From positions 1 through 39,578 of the forward strand of contig JAISHO010000046.1 in assembly GCA_031262485.1 (NCBI GenBank): a DNA stretch of 39,578 nt, in the 5' to 3' direction. Position 1 is the stretch's first letter. Every line of letters starts with the position of its first letter. The notes below the pieces were generated by a model. The model saw nothing but the letters and a program-made list of their open reading frames with translations, made no database searches and had not been told where the DNA came from. This stretch comes from Propionibacteriaceae bacterium (GTDB taxonomy: Bacteria; Actinomycetota; Actinomycetes; Propionibacteriales; Propionibacteriaceae). Below, piece by piece: positions 9,073-27,391 of the stretch. The translations under genes were made by a program, and so were the position numbers.

Positions 9073-12000
9073 TCACACGGTCACACGGCGACGCAGCCCG
9101 AGGACTCCCAGGCCGGCGGCGAGGCAGACGAGGGCGGCGGCGGCGAAGCCGGTCGTCATCGTCGAGCCCGTGTCGGGGACCTGACCGGTGGCGGAACCGC
9201 TAGCGGAACCGGAACCAGCGTCGTCGCCCGGAACGGAGGGCAGCGGAGCCGGGGTCGTCTCCCCGCCCGGGGCGGTGGTGGAGCCACCGTCATCCGGAAC
9301 CGTCGGTTCGGTCGTCTCCTCCGGCGCCGGAGCAGGAACCGGATCGACCGCGGCCTGCGGGAGGACGAGGACGGCGGCCGTGCGAGCCGGGATCGTCAAC
9401 GTGCCGGTGGCGGCGTTGAAGGTCGTCGTCTTGACGACAGGATCATAGCCGTTGGCCTGGATGTCGTTGAGCTGCCAGGCGGAACCGGCCTGGCCGTCGA
9501 TCGCCTCGGTGATCGTCTCATCCGACGCGTTGAAGACGACCATGAGGGCCTCGTAAGCCGAATCGAGGTCTTCGGTGGCCGCGCGGGTCGTCGCGGTGGC
9601 CGCCGGATCGTCGATGTGCATGACGATGAAGCCCGGCGTCGGGTTGACACCGTCGTTGAGGAAGGTGACGCGCTCGTTGATGAGAGCGCCGGAGCCCAAC
9701 GTCATGAGCGGGGACATGCTGCGCACCCGCAGCAGGTCGAGCGACATCTGGTACGACTGCTCCATGGCCGCCTGATCAGGCTTGTTGGCCGCGTTCTCGA
9801 GCAGCGGGGTCATGGCAGCGTCATCGCCCGGGGTGACGGGCAGGCCGGTGCCGAAGACGTTCGTCTCAAGCGACCAGTCGATGGCGTTGAAGTGATCGCC
9901 CGAGTTGTACGAGTTGTGATCGAGCGACTTCGAGCGGAGGATGTCGTCGCCGGCGTGCCAGAAGGTGGGCGACTGGCTCAAGGCGGCCGTCGCCAGCCCG
10001 AGGATGCTCATCCGCACCCGGGTGTCCATCGTGGCGTCGGACGGCAGCTTCCAGATGCCGTTGTCGAACGTCGTCGTCCCATCGTGGCAATCAATGTAGT
10101 TGATCACCTCTTGGGGGTCGACGGCGAACCCGGCGGCCTGGCGCCCGGCCACGCCCTCCATGCCATAGGCGGAGCCGTAGCCGAAGTCACGGCCGAGGAT
10201 CGGCGTGCCCGATCCCTTGTCGCTCGGCAACTCATAGGTGGCAAGGTTGCCGATGAGGCCGAGACGGACGAGGTCGGTGCGGTAGTAGAGATCCTTGAGC
10301 GGGTCGTAGGCGATCTCCGTGCCGTCATCGGCGGTGGCCACGACAGCCGGATCCGGGTACTCGTTCGGGTCGGTGTACAGACCCGTGCCGAAGCCCTGGT
10401 AGTCGCGCTGGTCGTTGTCGAAGGGGCCACCACCACGGACGGCGTCACGCATGCGGTCGTTGAAAGCGCCGATGCCGGTGCCGGCGATGTTGGCCTGACG
10501 CGCGGCGGTGAAGAGCGCGTCGTCAACGGAAGAACCATTGTTCCAGGCTTCGCCGTAGAGGTAGATGGCGGCGCCGTCGACCCCGTCCTTCTCGAGCGTC
10601 AGCTCGTCGAGGGCGGCGCGCACGTCGAGCATCGTCTCGATCGAATGGAAGCCCATGAGGTCGAAGCGGAAGCCGTCGACGTGGTAGTCCTTCGCCCACG
10701 TCACGAGCGAATCAACCATGAGCTTGTTGAACATGAGGTGCTGGGACTCGGTGTCCTGGCAGCACGACAACGTCTCGATCTGACCGTTGACGTTGTAGCG
10801 GTGGTAGTACTCCGGAACGACCTTGTCGAGGATGGATTTCTCACCCTGGCCCGACTGCGAGGTGTGGTTGAAGACCTGGTCGAGGACGACACGCAGGCCG
10901 ATCGAGTGCAGGCCGCCCACCATGGAGCGGAATTCGGAGACGCGAGCGCCGCCATCTTGGTTGCCCTCGGAGGCGTAGGAGCCTTCCGGAGTGCTGTAGT
11001 GCCACGGATCATAACCCCAGTTGAAGGCGTCCTGATCGGCGACGGCGGTGATGGCGTCACGGGCCGCCGAGGAGGCCGGGGCGACGTCGGCGGGGACCTC
11101 CGGGGTGACCTGGTCGGCCCGGTTCTCCGGGATCGTCGCGATGTCGAAGCTCGGCAGCAGGTGCACCGTCGTCAACCCGGCGTCAGACAATTCGGCGAGG
11201 TGCGTCATGCCGGCCGACTCCATCTGCGTGAAAGCGGCGTAGGTGCCGCGCAACTCGGCCGGGACTGTCTCGTCGATGGCGGAGAAGTCACGGATGTCGA
11301 GCTCGTAGATCGTCTGCTCGGCTTGGGTGCGCAGCGCCTCCGGGTTCGCCGTGTCCGTCCACAGGCTCGGGGCCCAGGCGGGATCGTCGAGGTCGACGAG
11401 GACGGAAGCGGTCGAATCGATCGTCAAGGCGACGGAATACGGATCGGTCACTTCGTTCTTGAGGACGGCGCCGGCCTCGGGCACGAAGACCTCGATATCC
11501 CACAGGAAGGAACGGTTCTTCCAAGCGGCGTCGCCCGCGACGGCCCAGACGCCGGTGGCGGGGTCGAGCGTGGCGGGGACGAAAACCTCAGCGTTGGCGG
11601 CGTCGGCCAACAGGTGGAGGGTGACGCTCTGCGCCGTCGGGGCCCACAGGCTGAGCGAGGGGACGCCGTCGGCCCAGGTGACGCCGATGGTGGCGTTCTC
11701 GGCGGCGGCGAAGATGTCGTCGAGCAGGAGGGCGGTCTGCATGCCCGTGTTGACGACCGTCTCACCAGCGGCGTCGGTGGCGGTCAGCGCGTAGGGGCCG
11801 GTTTTGAGGGCGGCGACGAGGGCGTCCTCGAGGGAACCCGTCGTGCCGTCGGCCAGCGCGGGGACGAGGGCGGTGTAGCCGGCGGTCAGCTTGTTCTTAT
11901 CCGACAAGGCGGTCGAGACCGTCTCGCCCGGGGTCAAGGTGATCTCCGGATGGCCCGTCCACGACCACGTCAGATCGGCCGGGGTGTGCTCGCCGAGGTT

Positions 12001-12858
12001 CGGCGGCACGGCCAAGGCGGTGCGATCGAGCCAGATGGCGATCGACTGGCCGGTGCCGACAGCGGGCAGCTCGGCGACGTCGACCGTCGTCACATGGGTC
12101 GTCGGATCATAGGTGAAGACCACGTTCTCATCGGCGGCCGTGACGAACGACATGTTCTGCCCGTTGGCGCCGCCCCCTTCACCATAATTCTCCGTCCAGC
12201 CCAAACCGACGGCGACCTTGAACTGGTAAGAGCCCTCGGGCAGGACGTTCGTCGCGAAGGTGTACGTGCCGTCGGCTTGCGGATACATCGCCGAGGCGAG
12301 GCAGGCCGGATCCCATTCACCGCAGCCGAGGGCGTCTTGGTAGTCGCCGGGCAAGGTGACGACCTCGTCGCGCGGAGCGGCGAAGGAGAGGTGGGTGACG
12401 GGGTTGTAGACGAAGTAGGTCGGCTGGTCCGTCGCCGTGAAGTCGATGTTGTTACCACCGGCGACGCCGTCGGCGCCGTAGTTGACGTCCCAGGTGCCGC
12501 CCTCGACGATCTTGAACTGATAGTCGCCGGCGGGGACGTCGATGAGGGCGGAATAAATATTGGTGGCGGGGTCGAGCGTCAGCTGGGTGGCGGAACAATC
12601 GGACTGCCAATCAGAGCCACAGCCAATGGCGAGGTTGAAATCGCCCGGCGCGGTGACGACAGCGGCCTCAGCGGCGACCACCGGATCCGTCGCCGTCTCC
12701 TCGGCCTGCGCGGCGGCAGGGGCGAGCGCTCCGATGAGCGTGACGGCGGCGGCCGTGAGGGCCACGCGCTTGAGGACGATCCGTCGCACCGACCGGCGCG
12801 TCGATGTCACGGTGTTCCATGACGCCGTCCGGCGCGGATGGGAACGGGAAGGGTGCAT
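9073..12858 (-). CDS. pulA: Secreted, wall-anchored type I pullulanase (GH13) with two X25 modules
   Basis: 1261 residues. It hydrolyses alpha-1,6 branch links of pullulan, starch or glycogen outside the cell. A long basic leader and hydrophobic segment (RVALTAAAVTLIGALAPAAA) form the signal peptide. Two X25/SusE-like modules follow (PGDFNLAIGCGSDWQSDC and LPGDYQDALGCGEWDPAC), then CBM48-like and GH13 domains. Type I motif NWGYDPWHY is at ~613; the catalytic Asp is in DGFRFDLMG (~727-735), Glu in YLYGEAWN (~766-773), and the third Asp in YIDCHDG (~921). The C-terminus has a Pro/Thr/Gly linker, VPDTGS, a hydrophobic helix and LRRRV, a sortase-type anchor with Val in place of the usual Leu. AAGGAAA precedes ATG 12858. 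Confidence 0.93.
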   Translation of the reverse strand: MHPSRSHPRRTASWNTVTSTRRSVRRIVLKRVALTAAAVTLIGALAPAAAQAEETATDPVVAAEAAVVTAPGDFNLAIGCGSDWQSDCSATQLTLDPATNIYSALIDVPAGDYQFKIVEGGTWDVNYGADGVAGGNNIDFTATDQPTYFVYNPVTHLSFAAPRDEVVTLPGDYQDALGCGEWDPACLASAMYPQADGTYTFATNVLPEGSYQFKVAVGLGWTENYGEGGGANGQNMSFVTAADENVVFTYDPTTHVTTVDVAELPAVGTGQSIAIWLDRTALAVPPNLGEHTPADLTWSWTGHPEITLTPGETVSTALSDKNKLTAGYTALVPALADGTTGSLEDALVAALKTGPYALTATDAAGETVVNTGMQTALLLDDIFAAAENATIGVTWADGVPSLSLWAPTAQSVTLHLLADAANAEVFVPATLDPATGVWAVAGDAAWKNRSFLWDIEVFVPEAGAVLKNEVTDPYSVALTIDSTASVLVDLDDPAWAPSLWTDTANPEALRTQAEQTIYELDIRDFSAIDETVPAELRGTYAAFTQMESAGMTHLAELSDAGLTTVHLLPSFDIATIPENRADQVTPEVPADVAPASSAARDAITAVADQDAFNWGYDPWHYSTPEGSYASEGNQDGGARVSEFRSMVGGLHSIGLRVVLDQVFNHTSQSGQGEKSILDKVVPEYYHRYNVNGQIETLSCCQDTESQHLMFNKLMVDSLVTWAKDYHVDGFRFDLMGFHSIETMLDVRAALDELTLEKDGVDGAAIYLYGEAWNNGSSVDDALFTAARQANIAGTGIGAFNDRMRDAVRGGGPFDNDQRDYQGFGTGLYTDPNEYPDPAVVATADDGTEIAYDPLKDLYYRTDLVRLGLIGNLATYELPSDKGSGTPILGRDFGYGSAYGMEGVAGRQAAGFAVDPQEVINYIDCHDGTTTFDNGIWKLPSDATMDTRVRMSILGLATAALSQSPTFWHAGDDILRSKSLDHNSYNSGDHFNAIDWSLETNVFGTGLPVTPGDDAAMTPLLENAANKPDQAAMEQSYQMSLDLLRVRSMSPLMTLGSGALINERVTFLNDGVNPTPGFIVMHIDDPAATATTRAATEDLDSAYEALMVVFNASDETITEAIDGQAGSAWQLNDIQANGYDPVVKTTTFNAATGTLTIPARTAAVLVLPQAAVDPVPAPAPEETTEPTVPDDGGSTTAPGGETTPAPLPSVPGDDAGSGSASGSATGQVPDTGSTMTTGFAAAALVCLAAGLGVLGLRRRVTV

Positions 12859-13255
12859 GGGTTTCCTTCGGGGGGTGGGAGAGACGACGATATGGAGGAG
12901 GGGCACGTCATCGTGCTCTAGCGGAGAGTGATGGTGCGGATGCCCCCCACCTGCCGGCGCGCCCGGCTCCCCGCTCCATCGCCCGGCCGATTCAGCGTGG
13001 CTGAGGCGTGCCGTGCAGTGCTTCGCCTTATCGGAGCTTATTGAGAGTCGTTCGCCCGCCGCCAATGGTGGTGAACGTCCGCTCTTAACCTAACAAAAGA
13101 CGCCCCGGCCTGGAAGTGAGACGCCAAGACGGACGACACGAGCCGGAGAGCGAGGGAGCGGTTCGTCCGAGGGCGGGCGACGGGGAATCAGATCGACGTG
13201 AGGTCGCCGCTGGGCTGCCGAGAAGCCGCCGTCGAGCTGCGATGCCGATCGACGA
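12859..13255. other. Intergenic region upstream of the pullulanase gene (397 bases)
   Basis: It holds the pullulanase ribosome-binding site and leader (minus strand) and the 3' end of the first PepSY gene. GGCGAC 13176-13181 and GTCGCC 13203-13208 could form a weak hairpin beyond that gene. I see no further gene and no obvious sugar-regulator operator. Confidence 0.4.
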
Positions 13256-15673: not shown

Positions 15674-15843
15674 TGACGGATTCTCCATTTCAAAGCGCAC
15701 AAAGTCACACACCGGCACCGGATGTCAGCCTACGCCCATCCGCGACGCTTGGCGAGAGAAATGTCACATTTTGCTCTTCGATTCTTCGTCACAAAATAAA
15801 AGAAAATGGCTCGTCGAGATGGTGGAATCCCATCGCCCGGTGT

Positions 15844-15855: not shown

Positions 15856-18771
15856 ATGAGCGAAAATGATGCCACAGTTGCCGTGCCACACGTCGCCATC
15901 CCCAAACTGACGAAGTCAGAGTTGGAGAAGATCGATGCCTGGTGGCGCGCCTGCAACTACTTGACCATTGGTCAAATTTACCTGCAAGAAAATCCACTCC
16001 TGCGCCGTGCCCTCACCCCTGAGGACATCAAACCGCGTCTCCTCGGCCACTGGGGCACCTCGGCTGGATTGGGCTTCATCTATTCCCACCTCAACCGACT
16101 CATCCGTGAGACGGGGCAGGACTGCCTCTACATCGCGGGCCCGGGCCACGGCGGTCCCGCCCTCGTGGCGGCCTCCTATCTCGAGGGGTATTACACCGAT
16201 GTCTTCCCGCGCATCACGCAGGATGACGACGGCATGCGCGCCCTCTTCCGTCAATTCTCGGCCCCCGGCGGCATCCCCTCCCACGCCTCCGTCACCACAC
16301 CGGGGTCGATCCACGAGGGCGGCGAGCTGGGTTATGCCTTGTCGCATGCTTTCGGCGCGGCCTTCGACAACCCCGACCTGTTGGTCGTCGCCGTCGTCGG
16401 CGACGGCGAGGCCGAGACCGGACCGCTCGAGGGCGGCTGGAAGGGGATCTCCTTCATCAACCCCCGTCGCGACGGCGCCGTGTTGCCCGTTCTCCACCTC
16501 AACGGGGCGAAGATCGCCGGGCCGACGGTGCTGGCGCGCAAGGATCCCGAAGACGTCCAGGCCATCTTCGAAGGCCACGGCTACGAGGTGCTGTGGGTCG
16601 ACGGCGACGATCTGCCGTGGATGCACGAACGCTTCGCCAACACCCTGGCCTACGCCTGGGAGCGCATCCAAGAGATCCAAGAGGAGGCTCGCTCCACCGA
16701 GTCCTTCGAGGGTCCGATGCCGCGGTGGCCGATGATCATCCTGCGCTCCCCCAAGGGCTGGACGGGCCCCAAGCTCGTCGACGGCGAAGTCGTCGAGGGC
16801 ACGTGGCGGGCTCACCAGGTGCCGCTGTCCGGCGTCAAGGAGAACCCCGACCACCTCGCCATCCTCGACACGTGGATGCGTTCCTACCGGATCGACGAGT
16901 TGTTCAACCACGACGGCTCCCCGACTGAGTTGGTCCGCTCGAACAACCCCGACGGCGATCTGCGCATGTCGGCCAGCCCCTTCGCCAACGGCGGACGTCT
17001 CACCAAGGACCTCGATCTGCCCGATTACAAGGACTTCGGCGTCGAGGTGACGCCTGAGACGCGGGCCACCGAACGGATCGAGTCGACCGGCCAGTTGGGC
17101 AAGTACCTGGCGGAGATCTACCGGCGCAACCCGAACAACTTCCGTCTTTTCTGCCCGGACGAGACGAACTCGAACCGGCTCGGCGCCGTCTTCGAGGTCT
17201 CCGACCGCACCTTCATGGAGCCGACCAACGCCATCGACGTCAAGATCGGCGCCGAGGGACGGGTCATGGAGGTGTTGAGCGAGCACAACTGCCACGGTTG
17301 GTTGGATGGCTACACCTTGACCGGCCGCCACGGCATGTTCGCCACCTACGAGGCTTTCGCCATGGTGTCGGCCTCCATGACGATGCAGCAGGCCAAGTGG
17401 CTCGAGGAGATGGACCACCTCGAGTGGCGCGCCAAGGTGCCCTCGACGAACATCCTTCTGTCGTCGACCTGCTGGCGCAACGACCACAATGGGTTCTCCC
17501 ATCAGTCGCCGATGCTGCTCCAGGTCGTCCTCAACATGCGCGGCGACGTCGCCCGGATCTACCTGCCGCCGGACGCCAACAGCCTCGTCGAGGTGGCCGA
17601 CCACTGCTTCCGCTCGCGTGACTACATCAACCTCATCGTCCAAGACAAGCAACCACAACCGCAGTGGATGACGATGGACGAGGCGGTCGAGCACTGCACC
17701 CGCGGCTACGGCATCTGGGAATGGGCCGGCACCGAGGGCCTCGGCAGCGAGAAGCCCGACATCGTCATCGCCTGCGCTGGCGACGTCGTCACGATGGAGG
17801 CGGTGGCCGCCGCCGAGTTGCTCAAGAAGCGCTTGCCGGAGCTGAAGATCCGCTTCGTCAACGTCGTCGACCTCATGACGATGTACCGCCCGAAGGACCA
17901 CCCCCACGGCATGAGCGCGAAGGCCTTCAGCGACATCTTCACCGACGACGTCGATGTCATCTTCGCCTTCCACGGCTTCCCCGGGGCGATCCACCAGCTC
18001 GTCCACGGCCGGCCCGACGCCGACCGCTTCCGGGCTCGTGGATTCATCGAGGAGGGCACGACGACGACGCCGTTCGACATGGTCGTGCGCAACAAGGTGG
18101 ACCGCTACCACCTCGTCATGGACGCCATCAACAACGCGCGTGTCAAGCCACAAGGCAGCCACGAGCTTTATCAGTACTGCGAGCAGATGCTGGCCAAGCA
18201 CGCCGACTGGATCGTCGAGTACCTCGAGGACATGCCCGAGGTGCGCGATTGGCAGTTGGGCCGCGACATCACCGAGGACACCGCCTCCCCCACCGCCACC
18301 GGTGTGGGTTCGGCCGCCACGCCTCAAGCCATGGTGACGTCGCCGGCCTCCCCGGCCGCGTCCGTCGCCCCGGCTGCCACCCCCGTCGTCGAGGAGAAGC
18401 CGGCCAAGCCGGAGCGCGACATCTTCTCCGAGCCGCCGCGGGGACGTCCGCGCCGCACCGCCACGGCCGCCGCCGAGCCGCCGGCTCCCCGCCGCAGCGG
18501 GCGTCAGCGTCGCCGGGGTCGTTCCGGCAGCGAGTACGGGCGCCTCAAGCAGGTCGTGCGCGATTCCATCATGGAGATCGTCGCCAGCGGCCAGGGCGAG
18601 TTCACGACCGCTCAGATCATCACCGGAGCCCGCGAGGACGTGCCGGATATGACGGCCAACCAGGTCGCCGTCGCGATCCGGGCCATCATGGGCGAGAGCC
18701 CGGCGCCGATCGAGCGGGTCGCCACCGGGCTGTACCGCTCCACCGGGCTGACCGGGCCAGACGAGGCCTGA
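15856..18771 (+). CDS. xfp: Xylulose-5-phosphate/fructose-6-phosphate phosphoketolase with a C-terminal AT-hook and winged-helix-like tail
   Basis: 971 residues; ordinary Xfp enzymes have ~790-825. The core (~1-805) splits xylulose 5-P or fructose 6-P with phosphate into acetyl phosphate plus a sugar phosphate, using thiamine diphosphate. Its marks are LGHWGTSAGLGFIYSHLNR, GPGHGGPALVA, the ThDP motif GDGEAETG (182-189) followed by LNGAKI, PDETNSNRL, SHQSPML and the late DVIFAFHGFPGAIHQL. After VRDWQLG (~796) the frame continues without a break: a Pro/Ala/Thr linker (~806-855), PPRGRPRR at 860-867 (AT-hook core RGRP), a basic stretch (RRSGRQRRRGRSG) and a ~70-residue helix-rich domain (896-965) with FTTAQI, NQVAVAIRAIM and a final VATGLYRS hairpin, resembling a winged helix. 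The tail is in frame and has normal codon use. Its DNA-binding role is inference. Confidence 0.93.
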   Translation: MSENDATVAVPHVAIPKLTKSELEKIDAWWRACNYLTIGQIYLQENPLLRRALTPEDIKPRLLGHWGTSAGLGFIYSHLNRLIRETGQDCLYIAGPGHGGPALVAASYLEGYYTDVFPRITQDDDGMRALFRQFSAPGGIPSHASVTTPGSIHEGGELGYALSHAFGAAFDNPDLLVVAVVGDGEAETGPLEGGWKGISFINPRRDGAVLPVLHLNGAKIAGPTVLARKDPEDVQAIFEGHGYEVLWVDGDDLPWMHERFANTLAYAWERIQEIQEEARSTESFEGPMPRWPMIILRSPKGWTGPKLVDGEVVEGTWRAHQVPLSGVKENPDHLAILDTWMRSYRIDELFNHDGSPTELVRSNNPDGDLRMSASPFANGGRLTKDLDLPDYKDFGVEVTPETRATERIESTGQLGKYLAEIYRRNPNNFRLFCPDETNSNRLGAVFEVSDRTFMEPTNAIDVKIGAEGRVMEVLSEHNCHGWLDGYTLTGRHGMFATYEAFAMVSASMTMQQAKWLEEMDHLEWRAKVPSTNILLSSTCWRNDHNGFSHQSPMLLQVVLNMRGDVARIYLPPDANSLVEVADHCFRSRDYINLIVQDKQPQPQWMTMDEAVEHCTRGYGIWEWAGTEGLGSEKPDIVIACAGDVVTMEAVAAAELLKKRLPELKIRFVNVVDLMTMYRPKDHPHGMSAKAFSDIFTDDVDVIFAFHGFPGAIHQLVHGRPDADRFRARGFIEEGTTTTPFDMVVRNKVDRYHLVMDAINNARVKPQGSHELYQYCEQMLAKHADWIVEYLEDMPEVRDWQLGRDITEDTASPTATGVGSAATPQAMVTSPASPAASVAPAATPVVEEKPAKPERDIFSEPPRGRPRRTATAAAEPPAPRRSGRQRRRGRSGSEYGRLKQVVRDSIMEIVASGQGEFTTAQIITGAREDVPDMTANQVAVAIRAIMGESPAPIERVATGLYRSTGLTGPDEA

Positions 18772-19125
18772 CCGCCTGATCACAACATGCCGAGGGGCTG
18801 GGCACGAAGCGATTCGTGCCCAGCCCCTCGTGTGTCATCAGCCGTGCTGGACAGCTGGTGACGATCACTGCGGCCGGAACAGCCTCCCGGATTTGATCAT
18901 TCCGGCCTCGGCCCTTGATCCCAAGGCCTGGCGTCACGCGCGCGAGCGCGCCGTCGCCGTCAGTGATGAGTTGTGCGATGTCAATGGCTGGTGGCCGTGG
19001 GCCGACCCGGCGTCCCGGTCTGTCCGATCCTTGGGTTGACGGGGATCGTCCGGGGCCGGCCTCACGACCGATGTGGCGTCGCGGTCAAGCGGTGAGCTGG
19101 ATCCGCGGGCCTTGAGGCTAATCGC
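18772..19125. other. Intergenic region between phosphoketolase and SGNH hydrolase (354 bases)
   Basis: The first part is the phosphoketolase terminator. The rest (18831-19125) has coding-like base composition and short open frames on both strands, but none shows a ribosome-binding site or a recognisable product. The two flanking genes converge here. Confidence 0.4.
18791..18830 (+). terminator. Strong terminator of the phosphoketolase gene
   Basis: A perfect 18-base stem (CGAGGGGCTGGGCACGAA and its complement) around a GCGA loop, followed by TGTGTC. It starts 20 bases after the stop codon. Confidence 0.85.
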
Positions 19126-20702: not shown

Positions 20703-22436
20703 TCAGCTCTCGACGTAACCCACAGCCGTCCAGTCGTACGGGTTGCGGGCGAGGCCCCACGAGCCGACGTTGGCCAAGCCCTCGGTGACGCCGGCGAGCG
20801 CCGGGCGCTGGTAGAGCGGCAAGGTGTGGACGGATTCCCAAATCGTCAGCGCGGCGTCCTGGCCAAGCTTGAGGCGAGCGGCCTCGTCCATCTCGGAGTC
20901 GAGCTGCGGCAGGAGCGCGTCGAGCGTCGGGTTGTCGAGCCGGGCGTAGTTCGAGTCGGAGCCGGCGCCGTAGATCTGGCCGACATTGCGCAACGGCCAC
21001 GCGGTGCCGATCCAGGCGAAGGCGATGATGTCGAAGTCGCCGTCGTCGAGGATGCTCGGCCACTGGGTCTGCGTGTCGACCGACTGGATGACGACGTTGA
21101 CGCCGATCTCCTTGAGCTGGTTCTGAGCCAGGAGGGCCTCGTTCTCCGAGGTCGCGACGTCGGTCAACATGGCGAAGCGGACGTCGAGCTGCTGGCCGTC
21201 CTTCTCACGGAAGCCGGTCGCCTCGTTGAGCGTCCAACCCAGCTCGTCGAGCTTGGCCTTGGCGCCCTCGGGATCGTAGTCGATGCCGGTTTCGGCGCCG
21301 AGGTCGACGTATCCCTCTTGGTTCTCCATGAAGATGTTGTTGTTAAGCGGCGTCGGGTCGACCGGCAGGCCGGCCAGGTCGGATTCGGCGATCTTCGTGC
21401 GGTCGAGGCCCATGACGAGGGCCTGGCGCAGGTTGACATCGCTGAGGATCGGAGCCTGGGAGTTGAAGGTGAAGTGACGGTAGTTCGGGCCGAGCGACTG
21501 ACGGATGACGGCGTCCGAACGGGCGGAGGCTTGCGTGTAGGCGTCGACGTCGGAGGCGATGTCGATGTAGTCGATCTCACCGTTGGCGAAAGCGGTCGCG
21601 GTCTGGGCCGACGAGACCATCTTGAAGGTGATCTTCTCCAGGCGCGGAGCTTGGCCCCACCACGTCTCGGTGTTCGGCACCATGACGAGTTCGCCGGAGG
21701 TCTTGTCGAAGCTTTGGATGATGAAGGGGCCGGAGAACCAGTCATTGTTGAAATCGGCCCAGCCGTCGTTGAAGGTGGCCGGATCGGCGACGCTCTCGGC
21801 GCGCATCGGGCCACCAGTGAAGAGGGCCTGCCAATCGGGGTAGGTGCTCTCGAAGGTGACGACGACGTCCTGCGGAGTCTCGCCGGCCTCAACCGAGGTG
21901 ATCGACTTCCAGCCGTCCGTCGAGGCGACGGAGAATTCGGTGTTGGAGCCGTTCATCGCCTTCCACGTGGCGATCCAGTCGTCGGCGTCGATCTGCTGGC
22001 CGTCGTTCCAGACGGCCTTCTCATTGATCTTGAGATTGACGACGAGCTTCCCGTCGACGACCTCGTCGGTGATCTCGTCGATGTAATCGGGGTTCTCCGT
22101 CAACGCGCCGGCGCCGTCCATGAAGTACCAGGGGCCCATGACGGGGCTGAGGGCGAAGCTGATCTCGGCGTCGTTGCCCGCGGCGGTGTTGAGGTTGAAG
22201 GTGTCGAGTTCGGAGCCGTAGGAGGCGGTGAACTCGCCGCCTTCGGGGACGTCCTCGTAGGCGACGGGGTTGACATCCCAGCCTTCGGCGATGACGGCGT
22301 TGTTCGAGCCGCTACCGGTGTCGGTCGACGAGCCCGTCGTCGCGGCGTCACCGCCCTCATCGGAGGGGCCGCCACACGCGGCCATGGTCATGACGAGAGC
22401 TCCTGAAACGAGCGGAAGCAATAGCTTCTTCTTCAC
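20703..22436 (-). CDS. Peptide/oligopeptide ABC importer substrate-binding lipoprotein (family 5)
   Basis: 577 residues. GTG 22436 is preceded by AAGGAGA at 8 bases. The signal KKKLLLPLVSGALVMTMAAC ends in a MAAC lipobox. A Gly/Ser/Thr linker leads to a DppA/OppA-type two-lobed binding protein: FALSPVMGPWYFMDGAG, VNLKINEKAVWNDGQQIDAD (the 'W.DG..i.A.D' motif), DLRQALVMGLDRTKIA-like VNLRQALVMGLDRTKI, and LWESVHTLPLYQRP near the end. It delivers peptides or similar ligands to the permease encoded just upstream. A 306-base gap with a palindrome separates it from the ATPase gene, so it is probably also made from its own promoter, a common way to over-produce the binding protein. Confidence 0.92.
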   Translation of the reverse strand: MKKKLLLPLVSGALVMTMAACGGPSDEGGDAATTGSSTDTGSGSNNAVIAEGWDVNPVAYEDVPEGGEFTASYGSELDTFNLNTAAGNDAEISFALSPVMGPWYFMDGAGALTENPDYIDEITDEVVDGKLVVNLKINEKAVWNDGQQIDADDWIATWKAMNGSNTEFSVASTDGWKSITSVEAGETPQDVVVTFESTYPDWQALFTGGPMRAESVADPATFNDGWADFNNDWFSGPFIIQSFDKTSGELVMVPNTETWWGQAPRLEKITFKMVSSAQTATAFANGEIDYIDIASDVDAYTQASARSDAVIRQSLGPNYRHFTFNSQAPILSDVNLRQALVMGLDRTKIAESDLAGLPVDPTPLNNNIFMENQEGYVDLGAETGIDYDPEGAKAKLDELGWTLNEATGFREKDGQQLDVRFAMLTDVATSENEALLAQNQLKEIGVNVVIQSVDTQTQWPSILDDGDFDIIAFAWIGTAWPLRNVGQIYGAGSDSNYARLDNPTLDALLPQLDSEMDEAARLKLGQDAALTIWESVHTLPLYQRPALAGVTEGLANVGSWGLARNPYDWTAVGYVES

Positions 22437-22742
22437 AGTGCTGTCTCCTTTCTTTGTGCACGACCAGAGCCACCTCATCGTTGGGAGCGCGGCATCAGCC
22501 GTTCGGATCGGAGACCCCGAGAGGATCAAGGGGTCTTACTCATTCTGGTCCAATGGTTATTTCACCGGAAAGATCTCCGTCGGGCCACATACGACCCTGT
22601 TCCACGTGGAACTGAAACCTAATCGTTACATATCTCCGCATCTCGGAATGTCGTTGAACTCCACCAATCGTGGAAGAAAAACAACCGTCACCGCCCGTCC
22701 TGTTCGCCCGGAACCCCGGCCCTCCGCCGCGAACCAGTGTGC
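22437..22742. other. Leader region between transporter ATPase and binding-protein genes (306 bases)
   Basis: It holds the binding-protein ribosome-binding site and the GTTCCACGTGGAAC palindrome, and probably a separate promoter. No additional gene is visible. Confidence 0.45.
22599..22612. promoter_or_regulatory. Candidate operator (GTTCCACGTGGAAC)
   Basis: A perfect 14-base palindrome ~165 bases before the binding-protein start. A second site with the same half-sites, TCCAC-caatc-GTGGA, lies about 50 bases further (around 22659-22673). Both could bind one regulator of the binding-protein gene. Confidence 0.45.
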
Positions 22743-24959
22743 TCAGAGGACCTCGACGACCCGGGCGTAGTGGCACGCGACCCGATGGTCGTCGCCGCCG
22801 CCCGACCGCATGGCCGGCTGCTCGTCGACACACCGCTTCTGCTCGTCCGTCGTCAACGTCGTGAAGAGGGGGCAACGAGTGCGGAACTTGCAGCCCGAAG
22901 GCGGATTGGCCGGATTCGGCAGATCGCCTTGGAGGACGACGCGGTTGCGGGCCCGCTCGACGGCCGGATCGGGGATCGGGATGGCCGAGATGAGCGCCTG
23001 GGTGTACGGATGCTGGGGGCGCTCGTAAACCTCGGTGACGTCGCCGATCTCGACGATCTGGCCCAAATACATGACGGCGACGCGGTCGGCGATGTGCCGG
23101 ATGACGGCGAGGTCGTGGGCGACGAGGAGATAGGAGAGGCCGAATTTCCCTTGGAGTTCCTGGAGGAGGTTGATGACGCCGGCCTGGATCGAGACGTCGA
23201 GGGCGGAGACCGGCTCGTCGAGGACGAGGACCTTCGGCCCGAGGGCGAGGGCGCGGGCGATGCCGATACGCTGGCGCTGCCCGCCGGAGAAATGCTGCGG
23301 GTAGCGGTTGGCGTGGCTCTCGTCGAGGCCGACGAGCTTGAGCAACTCCATGACGCGCCGCTCGATCTTCTCTTTCCCGTAGCCGAAGACCTCCATCGGC
23401 TCGGCGATGATGTCGAAGACGGGCAGGCGCGGGTCGACCGCCGCCATCGGATCCTGGAAGACGACCTGGATGTGCTGGCGCAGTTCCTTGCGCTCCTTCT
23501 TCGTCAACGTGGCGGTGTCGTGGCCGAGGACGGAGATCGAGCCGGCTTGCGGTTTGACGAGGTCGAGCACCTGGAGCAGCGTCGTCGACTTGCCGGAGCC
23601 GGATTCACCGACGAGCCCCAAGGTCTCGCCTTCGCGGATGTCGAGGTCGATCTTGTCGACGGCGTGGACCTCGCCGACGTGGCGACGGTAGAGGGCGCCC
23701 TTGAGGAGGGGGAAAGTCTTCTCCAGTTGCGTGATCTCAAGGGCGGCGTCGCGTTCGAGACGCGGGGTGGCGGAGTATTCCGGGATCGGCAGATCGGGCA
23801 CCTCGAAGATGTCGGCGTGGCCCCAGCCGTGCTCGACGATCTCGGCCACACGGTGGCAGGCTGCCCGGTGCGGGATCGCCCGGGTGGTGGTGGGTCGGTC
23901 GCCGGAGTTGGTGACCGGCGCCCCGGCCGGTGCGGGGGCGGGTGCGTTGGCGGCGCCGTTCGTCTCGGACGCTTCGACCTCGGCACGGGAATACCCGTGG
24001 TCGGGCGCGGCCATCGGCTTGATCGGGCGCGCCGGGACGTCTTGGAGCTGGGGCTCCGTCGTGTGGCAGATCGGCAGGGCGATCGGGCAGCGGGCGGCGA
24101 AGGGGCAGCCCGGCGGCAAGGCGTTCATCTGCGGCGGGTTGCCTTCGAGGACGGGCAACGCGTCGGTCGAATCCTGGTCGAGGCGGGGCACGGTGCCGAG
24201 CAAACCGATCGTGTACGGCATGGCGGCGTGGGAGAAGATCTCGTCGACCGTCCCTTGCTCGACGGCCCGCCCGGCGTACATGACGGTGACGAAGTCGCAC
24301 GAGCCGGCCACGACGCCGAGGTCGTGGGTGATGAGGATCATGGCGGCGCCGGTGTCGTGCTGGGCTTGGGCGAGCAAGTCCATGACCTGGGCTTGGATCG
24401 TCACGTCGAGGGCTGTCGTCGGCTCGTCGGCGATGATGAGGTCGGGCTGGTTGGCCATCGCCATGGCGATCATGACGCGCTGGCGCATGCCGCCGGAGAA
24501 TTCGAAGGGGTAGGCCTTGGCCCGCTCGGCCGCGTCAGGGATGCCGACGTCGTCGAGGAGGGCGACGGCGCGATCCCACGCCTCCCGCTTAGAGACCTTG
24601 TTGTGGATGAGGATCGTCTCGGCGATCTGCTGGCCGACCCCGTAGACGGGCGTGAGCGCGGAGAGGGGATCTTGGAAGACCATGGCGATGCGCTTGCCGC
24701 GGATCTTCGACATCTCGGCGTCGGTCTTGCCGATCAACTCCTCATCCTCGAGGGTGACGGAGCCGCGCACCCGGGCCGAGGGGGCGTGCAGGCCCATGAC
24801 GGCCAGGCTCGTCACCGATTTGCCGGAGCCGGACTCGCCGACCAGCCCCATCGTCTCGCCCTTGCGCAACCCGAAGCTGAGCCCCCGGACGGCGCGGACG
24901 GGGCCGTCTTCGCTGGGGAAGGTGACGGAGAGGTTCCGCACGTTCAAGACATCGCTCAT
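22743..24959 (-). CDS. Peptide ABC importer, fused double ATP-binding protein (DppD-DppF type)
   Basis: 738 residues carrying two complete ABC ATPases that are usually separate proteins. Domain 1: Walker A GESGSGKS (41-48), signature FSGGMRQRV (~152), Walker B LIIADEP, and an oligopeptide C-terminal cysteine motif [14 protein letters not shown] Pro/Ala-rich linker (PAPAPAGAP) follows. Domain 2: Walker A GESGSGKS (~450), signature FSGGQRQRI (~555), Walker B VLVLDEP, and a second motif [14 protein letters not shown]. The Cys-rich ends suggest Fe-S or metal sites, known in Opp/Dpp ATPases. ATG 24959 overlaps the stop of the permease gene by 4 bases, indicating translational coupling. Confidence 0.93.
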
Positions 24960-26083
24960 GCCTGCGCCTTCCTGATGTCACGTTCGCGGGCGTCTTCGGC
25001 GTCGAGCGGGATCGCCACCTCGGTGGGGACGAGCGACTCGTCTTCGTCCTCATCGGTCAGGGTGAGGACGCCGCCGGAGGCCGAGGTCGGGTCGAGGGCG
25101 TCGCGGATGCCGTCGCCGACGGCGTTCACGCACAAGACGAGGATGACGAGGATGATCGCCGGGAAGCCGAAGATCCACGGGAAGGTCGTCGCCATGCGCG
25201 AGCCCTGGCTGATGAGGGAGCCCAGGGAGACGTCGGGCGGCTGGACGCCCAGCCCGAGGAAGGACAGCCCCGTCTCGGAGAGGATGGCCCCGCCGACACC
25301 GAGGGCGATGTTGATGATGAGGAGGGAGGAGATGTTGGGCACGATGTGGCGCACGATGATGCCGCCGGAGGACATGCCCATGTACCGCGCCGCCAGGATG
25401 TACTCCTTGTTGAGGAGGGATTGGGTCATCGATCGGACGACACGGGCCGTCACCATCCACCCGAGGATAGCGAGGACGAAGGCGAGCATGACCCAGGCGG
25501 CGTTGCCGCTGGCGTCGAAGCCCTTGGTGACGACGGCGACGATGAGGAAGAAGGGGACGATGAGGAGCAGGTCGATGAGCCAGAGCAAGATGCGCTCGAC
25601 CCACCCGCCGAAGTAGGCCGCCGTCGTGCCGACGAGAGTGGCGATCAAGGCGGAGACGATGGCGACGAAGAAGCCGATGAGCAGGGAACGGCTCAGCCCG
25701 TGCAACGTCATCGCCAGCACGTCGCGTCCGGCTTGCGTCGTGCCGAAGAGGTGGTTCGAGCTGGGCGGTTGCAGGAAGTTCGCCGTGTCGATGTCGAGGT
25801 ATTTCCAATAGGACAGGTGCGGGCCGACGACCGCCATGAAGACGAGGATGAGGATCCCGATCGCGCCGACGACGGCCGTCTTGTTACGGAGGAAGCGGCG
25901 CCAGGTGAGCTGGCCGCGGGTGAGGCGGCCGGATTTCTTGGGCGCCGTGGCGTCGGCGGCCCCCGCCGTCGTCGCGTCGGTCGCGCTCGATGTCGCCGTG
26001 GCGGCGGAGGCGCTGCCTGTGACGATCGTGGCGTCCTTGTTCGGATCGCGGCCCGGCGTCGTGCCGGTAGTGTTCTCGCTCAT
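24956..26083 (-). CDS. Peptide ABC importer permease 2 (DppC/OppC type)
   Basis: 375 residues from ATG 26083. A ~65-residue Ala/Thr-rich tail (SASAATATSSATDATTAGAA) precedes the usual OppC start RRFLRNKTAVVGAIGILILV. About six membrane segments follow, and the EAA loop is seen as VVRSMTQSLLNKEYILAARY, then SGGIIVRHIVPN. The conserved end LGLGVQPPDVSLGSLISQG is present. It starts 4 bases after the first permease stop and overlaps the ATPase gene, so all three form one operon. Confidence 0.92.
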   Translation of the reverse strand: MSENTTGTTPGRDPNKDATIVTGSASAATATSSATDATTAGAADATAPKKSGRLTRGQLTWRRFLRNKTAVVGAIGILILVFMAVVGPHLSYWKYLDIDTANFLQPPSSNHLFGTTQAGRDVLAMTLHGLSRSLLIGFFVAIVSALIATLVGTTAAYFGGWVERILLWLIDLLLIVPFFLIVAVVTKGFDASGNAAWVMLAFVLAILGWMVTARVVRSMTQSLLNKEYILAARYMGMSSGGIIVRHIVPNISSLLIINIALGVGGAILSETGLSFLGLGVQPPDVSLGSLISQGSRMATTFPWIFGFPAIILVILVLCVNAVGDGIRDALDPTSASGGVLTLTDEDEDESLVPTEVAIPLDAEDARERDIRKAQA

Positions 26084-26087
26084 CGGA

Positions 26088-27071
26088 TCACCCCAACCTG
26101 ACTCGTGGATCGAGAACGGCGACGACGATGTCGGAGAGGATCGCCCCGACGATGACGCAGACGCCAGAGAAGGCGGCCACGGCGGTGACGCCGTTGACAT
26201 CGTGTCCACCGATCGTCTCGACGAGGTAGCGGCCGATGCCGTTGAAGCTGAAGACCGTCTCCGTCAACGTCGCCCCGGTGAACATCGTCGCCACGGTGAA
26301 GGCGACGTAGGTGCCCGTCGGAATGAGCGCGGTGCGCAAAGCGTGCTTCGTCACCGCCTTGGAATAAGGCAGGCCCTTGGCCCGGGCCGTGCGGACGTAA
26401 TCCTGGCCCAGGGAATCGAGCATGAGGTTGCGTTGGATCCGGCTGAAGGAGGCCGCGCTCGTGATGAAGAGCGCCAGCGTCGGCAATAACAAGTGCTGAA
26501 GCCGGTCGAAGACGGCGGCGAAGGGATAATTGCCGGTGCGCCCCGTCTCGCCGACGAACTCGAAGATGTTGAGCCCCGTCGTCCGGTTGATGTGCACAGC
26601 CAACACCTGGCTGGCTAGGCCGATGACGAAGATCGGGGTGGAGACGAAGAGGAGGGAGAGGAAGGTGATGACGCGGTCGGAGATCTTGTATTGCCGGGTG
26701 GCCGTCCAGGCGCCGATGCCGACGCCGACGATGATGCTCGTGATCGTGCCGATGAGCATGAGCCTGATGCTGACGCCGACGCGCGAGGCGATCTGCTCGT
26801 TGACGTAGGCGCCCTCGGGAGAACGGCCCCAATCCCAGCTGGTGACGATGTTGGAGAGCCAGACACCGTAACGTTCAAGGAGAGGGACGTTATGGCTGAG
26901 GTTGTAGCGCAGCATCATCTGCTCGATGACGGCGGGATCGACCGGGGGCTGGCGGGCGGCGTAGACGGCGTACGGGTTGAGCACCCAGCCGGCCAGGAGA
27001 TAGACGAGCGAGATGGCGATGAACAGAAGGACGGCGTAGTTGAGCAGGCGCTTGAGGATATAGCGCGTCAT
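26088..27071 (-). CDS. Peptide ABC importer permease 1 (DppB/OppB type)
   Basis: 327 residues from ATG 27071, with GGAG 6 bases upstream. Typical opening MTRYILKRLLNYAVLLFIAI, then a periplasmic loop with LSHNVPLLERYG, six membrane segments, and the EAA-type loop RIQRNLMLDSLGQDYVRTAR followed by AKGLPYSKAVTKHALRTALI. It ends VAVLDPRVRLG, the standard OppB C-terminus. It is the first gene of the transporter operon. Confidence 0.92.
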   Translation of the reverse strand: MTRYILKRLLNYAVLLFIAISLVYLLAGWVLNPYAVYAARQPPVDPAVIEQMMLRYNLSHNVPLLERYGVWLSNIVTSWDWGRSPEGAYVNEQIASRVGVSIRLMLIGTITSIIVGVGIGAWTATRQYKISDRVITFLSLLFVSTPIFVIGLASQVLAVHINRTTGLNIFEFVGETGRTGNYPFAAVFDRLQHLLLPTLALFITSAASFSRIQRNLMLDSLGQDYVRTARAKGLPYSKAVTKHALRTALIPTGTYVAFTVATMFTGATLTETVFSFNGIGRYLVETIGGHDVNGVTAVAAFSGVCVIVGAILSDIVVAVLDPRVRLG

Positions 27072-27391
27072 GGGCAACTCCGCTCCACCACAGGGTTCAT
27101 CGGGGGCACTCGTCTTGCTGGGGGCACGACCTCCTCCATCGGCAGGTCGCAGACATCGTAGCACCGACGACGCCTAACTTCCTTGTCGGCCTTCAACGAC
27201 TAGGTGATATCGACGTCACTCCTCGTATGCGGCGATCGTTCGCGAAATGACGAAGCGATCCGTTCCACCGCCCGACCGGATGCCGAGATCGTCACTGATT
27301 CACCTTGTCGGGGCATGAGCACCAGGTCCCTGAAATGAGACGATCGCCCCGGCCCACGACAGCGCGTGGATCCGGGGCGACCGAAGTGAGA
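27072..27391. other. Intergenic region upstream of the transporter operon (320 bases)
   Basis: It carries the operon's promoter region (minus strand) and, at its right end, the DUF805-gene terminator. GGGGGCAC occurs twice (near 27093 and 27115). I see no gene and no riboswitch-like structure. Confidence 0.4.
27341..27383 (-). terminator. Terminator of the DUF805 gene
   Basis: CGATCGCCCCGG at 27341-27352 pairs with CCGGGGCGACCG at 27372-27383 (one mismatch), and CCCAC/CGTGG pairs inside the loop. TCTCATTTC follows on the minus strand. Confidence 0.7.

Follow-up and report, generated by a model that had tools for sequence, protein, structure and literature searches.

A phosphoketolase with a lineage-restricted C-terminal tail containing a putative winged-helix-type domain in a Propionibacteriaceae bacterium

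The analysis of a 39,578-nt contig of a Propionibacteriaceae bacterium (JAISHO010000046.1; the whole stretch is referred to as the window) revealed a phosphoketolase that is ordinary except for an additional C-terminal domain, a fusion restricted to one lineage. The xfp gene occupies 15856-18771 on the forward strand and reads without interruption from ATG to TGA over 971 aa. We give about an even chance to the reading that the enzyme acquired its tail within this lineage and is tethered by it to nucleic acid or to a partner. The features of the gene and its 3' side are as follows.

15856..18270, + strand: phosphoketolase core, residues 1-805, with XFP_N, XFP and XFP_C (Pfam; alignment with the solved structure 8io8)
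18271..18414, + strand: Pro/Ala/Ser/Thr-rich linker, residues 806-853, net charge -3 (composition; no DNA homology to relatives past 18287)
18415..18522, + strand: Arg-rich stretch, residues 854-889, net charge +9, PRGRP at 861-865 (composition)
18523..18768, + strand: small domain of putative winged-helix type, residues 890-971, net charge -4, DUF7669-like (Pfam DUF7669 below cut-off; AlphaFold2)
18791..18830, + strand: perfect 18-bp hairpin with a 4-nt loop, 19 nt past the stop codon of the tail, probable transcript end (inverted-repeat scan, fold z-score)

All three domains of the phosphoketolase family Xfp/Xpk (PF09364, PF03894 and PF09363) were complete in the protein, and each exceeded its curated Pfam cut-off: XFP_N at residues 18-381 (E 1.4e-157, 524.6 bits against 23.7), XFP at residues 413-587 (E 5.1e-78, 261.3 bits against 22) and XFP_C at residues 598-800 (E 1.7e-81, 273 bits against 23.4), which places the protein among the phosphoketolases. 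The NCBIfam model NF003619 (phosphoketolase) also matched residues 16-802 above its cut-off. Core residues 15-800 aligned end to end with the solved phosphoketolase 8io8 (E 2e-279), and the nearest relative by identity, L010, shared 88% identity with the core over 266 columns, so decay of the enzyme has no support. The core is thus predicted to be an intact and working phosphoketolase. A tree of the core, calculated without the genus-mate L009, gave the gene no well-supported placement. The first-pass annotation had put the end of the core near residue 805, with about 165 further residues in the same frame. Both statements held, as XFP_C ended at residue 800, the DNA homology to seven relatives (four genus-mates, L010, L011 and L012) stopped at 18252-18287 (residues 799-811), and the rest of the 971-aa frame carried a coding bias.

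The tail is coding in the frame of the phosphoketolase. At codon positions 1/2/3, the core had GC contents of 0.63/0.42/0.89, the linker 0.75/0.76/0.86 and the small domain 0.66/0.51/0.94. A codon-usage score trained on 13 other ORFs of the window gave 0.57, 0.29 and 0.60 bits/codon in frame for the core, the linker and the domain, respectively, while the other two forward frames scored negative and the best reverse frame in the domain reached 0.15. The hairpin at 18791-18830 (fold z-score -6.74) was the sole repeat reported in an inverted-repeat scan of 18240-19120 (arms of at least 10 nt, at most 60 nt apart); it follows the tail, with none after the core, and is the probable end of the transcript. 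It was omitted by the terminator scan since that scan requires a T run, which the hairpin does not have. A hairpin with 84% complementarity was also seen 3' of the shorter xfp of L010.

The xfp gene, recognized by XFP_C, was present in 5 of the 19 genomes of the genus, including that of the window. The frames of the other four genus-mates (L005, L006, L007 and L009) were 809-814 aa long and ended 19-22 residues past the last Trp of the core with short Pro/Lys/Arg tails of net charge +2 to +4. A relative from the collection of genome contigs, L011, had a 27-residue Pro/Lys/Arg tail (net +3); the 14-residue end of L010 (net 0) and the 23-residue end of L012 (net -2) were not basic. The genus xfp genes look as if a basic tail were their ancestral state. 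In the class, XFP_C was detected in 223 of 394 genomes, and the at least 150 XFP_C matches listed contained 39 with a stop-to-stop frame of at least 860 aa; shorter frames were excluded from the tail search since they leave no room for a tail of about 165 residues, barring a cut by a contig end. The longest stretch past XFP_C was 34 residues for 38 of these 39 and one 852-aa frame, and up to 35 residues for six further matches, the comparison leaving out one of two G415 matches and two on the minus strand. Compared with the roughly 165 extra residues of the window protein, none of these 45 other class members, among the matches listed, extended more than 35 residues past XFP_C. The search for other long phosphoketolases with such a tail, suggested by the first-pass annotation, therefore returned none besides that of the window within this set. 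As judged from these sequences, the tail is lineage-specific: none of the relatives with an inspected xfp end carried it.

Searches for the small domain elsewhere gave a similar picture. Within its own genome, a 49-contig draft, the domain found itself and only two further matches (E 0.10 and 0.13). In samples that overlap one another, the domain was matched in 2 of 97 genomes of the family (E <= 0.01; the window's own and a match in a 49-aa frame with an internal stop), 1 of 391 of the order (E <= 0.001; no other genome with the domain) and 7 of 394 of the class (E <= 0.01), and the whole tail in 1 of 396 of the phylum (E <= 1e-5; no other genome with the domain). The six non-self matches in the class scored 18-21.7 bits, the best (E 6.6e-4) containing an internal stop, and we judged them to be chance from their local alignments, in which that of L062 was not recovered. 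With the whole tail as the query, 15 of 19 genomes of the genus gave matches at E <= 1; the non-self ones lay on the Pro/Ala/Arg linker, none reaching beyond query residue 113 (residue 918 of the protein), so that the domain was spanned by none of them. A query combining the XFP_C part and the tail identified four relatives from 26 candidate stretches in the genome contigs, and the tail was matched by none of them. The domain had no match in plasmids (E <= 0.01) or phages (E <= 1), and none of 15 candidate stretches from viral contigs was confirmed. Other profile libraries gave E values of 0.12 (NCBIfam), 0.014 (PHROGs) and 0.069 (PADLOC AbiEi), and the best match among PDB sequences was an allophycocyanin (E 0.96). 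In these sequence searches, none of the domain matches was convincing as a homologue in the family, order, class and phylum samples, the plasmids, the phages or the viral contigs.

The composition of the first part of the tail agreed with the first-pass annotation, which had described a Pro/Ala linker (here residues 806-853), a strongly basic stretch (residues 854-889, net +9) and RGRPRR with the AT-hook core RGRP. RGRPRR was located at 862-867, with PRGRP starting at 861. An AT-hook consists of an RGRP core flanked by Pro and basic residues, and PPRGRPRR at 860-867 matches it as a sequence pattern. When residues 806-889 were shuffled 200,000 times, 0.26% of the shuffles contained PRGRP and 1.6% contained RGRP; the test was picked after the motif had been noticed. 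An AT-hook core is present at the level of the motif, yet it is one motif within an Arg/Pro-rich stretch. The Arg-rich stretch is likely a binder of polyanions.

The small domain starts at residue 890 and includes ERVATGLYRS from residue 953. The Pfam model DUF7669 (PF24706) matched the domain alone with E 0.0016 and 19.1 bits, short of the curated cut-off of 23, and within the whole protein with E 0.21 and 12.3 bits. A six-sequence DUF7669 profile scored 16.4 bits against the domain, a value reached by none of 20000 shuffles (maximum 10.9), and its best alignment covered residues 12-60 of 82, leaving the wing outside. The hhalign comparison gave E 7.7e-5 and a probability of 62% with six DUF7669 sequences, and E 0.0022 and 13% with three. 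The same six-sequence profile, when run against the genome of the window itself, did not match the tail domain at E <= 1. The domain shares with DUF7669 the RD-I and GEF-T motifs, the second and third helices and the closing RV-GxY-R; it differs in its score below the cut-off and in being shorter ahead of the wing. The DUF7669 members examined were standalone or N-terminal on a DUF6884 protein, whereas the tail domain sits behind an enzyme. One such member, from a genome of the same bacterial family (L070, 13-1734, minus strand), with DUF7669 N-terminal to DUF6884, indicates that DUF7669 does occur fused to other modules. The likeness to DUF7669 is no proof of fold, as PDB sequences gave no match to the three-sequence DUF7669 profile. 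DUF7669 found no mention in the open-licence PMC literature.

The fold was predicted by two AlphaFold2 runs on a single sequence each, as a usable alignment was not found; a search of viral contigs for a deeper one, with the domain plus DUF7669 members and with two DUF7669 sets, confirmed no relatives. The first model (residues 890-971) was all-helical, with four helices, a mean pLDDT of 69.5 and a poor final helix. In contrast, the trimmed model (residues 892-964; mean pLDDT 76.0, pTM 0.62) showed helix 2-20, strand 24-26, helix 27-37, helix 43-54 and strand 68-70, which is the helix-strand-helix-helix-strand order of a winged helix, with pLDDT of 69, 56 and 49 in the final three blocks (wing region about 49-69). 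In the Foldseek search against the PDB, the top 10 chains for the first model were all Fur/PerR/Nur/Zur/Rex proteins, which we take to be winged-helix regulators (best E 1.4), and the top ten for the second model were five ZBP1 or ORC chains, presumably winged helices as well, and five EF-hand proteins (best E 0.87). The best match to viral models had E 0.29, and none of these values was significant. The secondary-structure order of the second model, the DUF7669 similarity and the nearest solved folds together favour the winged-helix type as the putative fold. The helix-rich, winged-helix-like domain proposed by the first-pass annotation was thus partly borne out: the trimmed model and the DUF7669 likeness agree with it, whereas the first model was all-helical. 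Its suggested fold comparison led to winged helices in 10 of 10 and 5 of 10 nearest PDB folds, at non-significant E values.

We propose that a working phosphoketolase gained, in one lineage of the genus, the linker, the Arg-rich stretch and the winged-helix-type domain. The tails of the enzyme oligomer would hold the enzyme on the nucleoid or on RNA via the Arg-rich stretch, mostly without sequence preference, or alternatively the winged helix would contact a partner, and catalysis would be unaltered by the tethering. If the assembly is as in S. elongatus, the tails of both subunits in a dimer would exit close together, which would suit a multivalent tether. Both the contact with nucleic acid and the tethering are inferred. 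Counted in favour are the in-frame coding bias, the intact core, the +9 stretch with PRGRP, the winged-helix order, the DUF7669 similarity and the short basic tails at the same place in all four genus-mates with xfp and in L011. Counted against are the occurrence of the tail in a single genome, the net acidic domain, the all-helical first model, the Foldseek E values of at least 0.87 against the PDB, the DUF7669 score below the cut-off with the wing unaligned and the profile search of the own genome silent, and the ends of L010 and L012 without a basic tail.

The domain itself contains 7 basic and 11 acidic residues, and its presumed recognition helix (residues 934-945, ANQVAVAIRAIM) has one basic residue; this charge and this helix disfavour strong sequence-specific DNA binding. 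They bear on a reading that we consider decidedly unlikely, in which the tail recognizes particular promoters, either that of xfp or those of sugar genes, under the control of the enzyme's ligand state. Such a switch would be in keeping with the presence of both an AT-hook core and a winged-helix-type domain on an enzyme of central metabolism, and with an imperfect palindrome (two 11-nt arms of 82% complementarity, separated by 1 nt) located at 15754-15776 in the spacer that separates xfp from the divergent aldo/keto reductase gene. However, shuffling this intergenic stretch 2000 times gave palindromes of the same class in 155 cases, which is near chance, and the same scan upstream of xfp found only unrelated palindromes in the four genus-mates and none in L010, a comparison that is weak evidence either way since these relatives have no tail. 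In the S. elongatus phosphoketolase (PMC10365998), ATP binds at the interface of the dimer, where the C termini of its subunits face each other. H706 and R721 of the six ATP-contact residues given there were kept in the window protein, whereas Y710, R711, H719 and R753 were replaced by H, G, R and N in the 8io8 alignment, so ATP inhibition of this enzyme is doubtful, which also speaks against a ligand-operated switch. In the most far-reaching version, the phosphoketolase would itself be a nucleic-acid-binding regulator: winged helices and AT-hooks would be presented in pairs next to the C-terminal interface of the dimer or of a larger ring, and how firmly the enzyme holds the nucleoid or sugar-gene promoters would depend on its substrate or nucleotide state. 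This version seems very doubtful to us. The first-pass annotation had suggested an enzyme with a putative DNA-binding tail that might bind promoters; the fusion is real, while gene regulation by the tail is possible but unsupported, considering the net acidic domain, the near-chance and unshared palindrome and the absence of the tail in relatives.

The acidic charge and the few basic surface residues would fit with the domain being a protein-protein or oligomerisation module, with the Arg-rich stretch a mere spacer or solubility element and nucleic acid unbound. Dimer-dimer contacts near the C terminus, described for the S. elongatus enzyme (PMC10365998), point the same way, but a plain spacer would not usually carry a net charge of +9 and an AT-hook core, and we regard this reading as rather unlikely. 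The restriction of the tail to one genome, missing in all four genus-mates with xfp, would also be expected of a recent functionless fusion, a neutral tail still to be lost; against this, about 165 open codons with host-like codon bias suggest that the domain was selected as a protein before or after the fusion, and such a neutral origin is unlikely. That the core was joined to an unrelated gene in assembly or sequencing is most improbable: the assembly is a 49-contig draft and no relative has the tail, but the reading frame continues across the junction and both of its sides show coding signal, the sole inverted repeat in 18240-19120 follows the tail and not the core, and no ribosome-binding site was evident by eye ahead of an in-frame ATG near 18331.

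Two other origins of the tail were rejected. Loss of a stop codon into a neighbouring gene was ruled out because the DNA 3' of xfp in the relatives had no homology to the tail, and an independent small gene because the ribosome-binding site was wanting, as judged by eye, at the ATG near 18331.

PutA, BirA and NadR are enzymes that also regulate genes via a DNA-binding domain. Like them, the window protein combines a metabolic enzyme with a DNA-binding-type module in a single polypeptide; unlike these known and tested regulators, it carries a module that occurs in one genome only and whose DNA binding is putative. Among the open-licence PMC papers listed, none described a phosphoketolase fused to such a tail, judging by titles and the openings of abstracts. 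Should the tail bind nucleic acid, it would add a new example of a DNA-binding-type module gained by an enzyme of central metabolism. The interest lies mainly in the recent origin and in the natural tail-less controls, namely the four genus-mates with short basic tails only; if nucleic acid is indeed bound, the first steps towards a regulating or anchored enzyme would become directly testable.

The gene neighbourhood of xfp differed within the genus. The genus-mates L096 (2-562, plus strand) and L098 (266-850, minus strand) carry the 3' end of a ribonuclease E/G gene directly ahead of xfp (RNase_E_G, E 1.3e-57 and 1.2e-59, respectively), unlike the window, in which the upstream neighbour is the divergent aldo/keto reductase gene. 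Elsewhere in the window, a pullulanase-type protein of 1330 aa, whose end weakly matches an LPXTG cell-wall anchor, is encoded at 9073-13065 (minus strand), and an oligopeptide-type ABC transporter operon, consisting of a substrate-binding protein, fused ATPases and two permeases, is located at 20703-27164 (minus strand).
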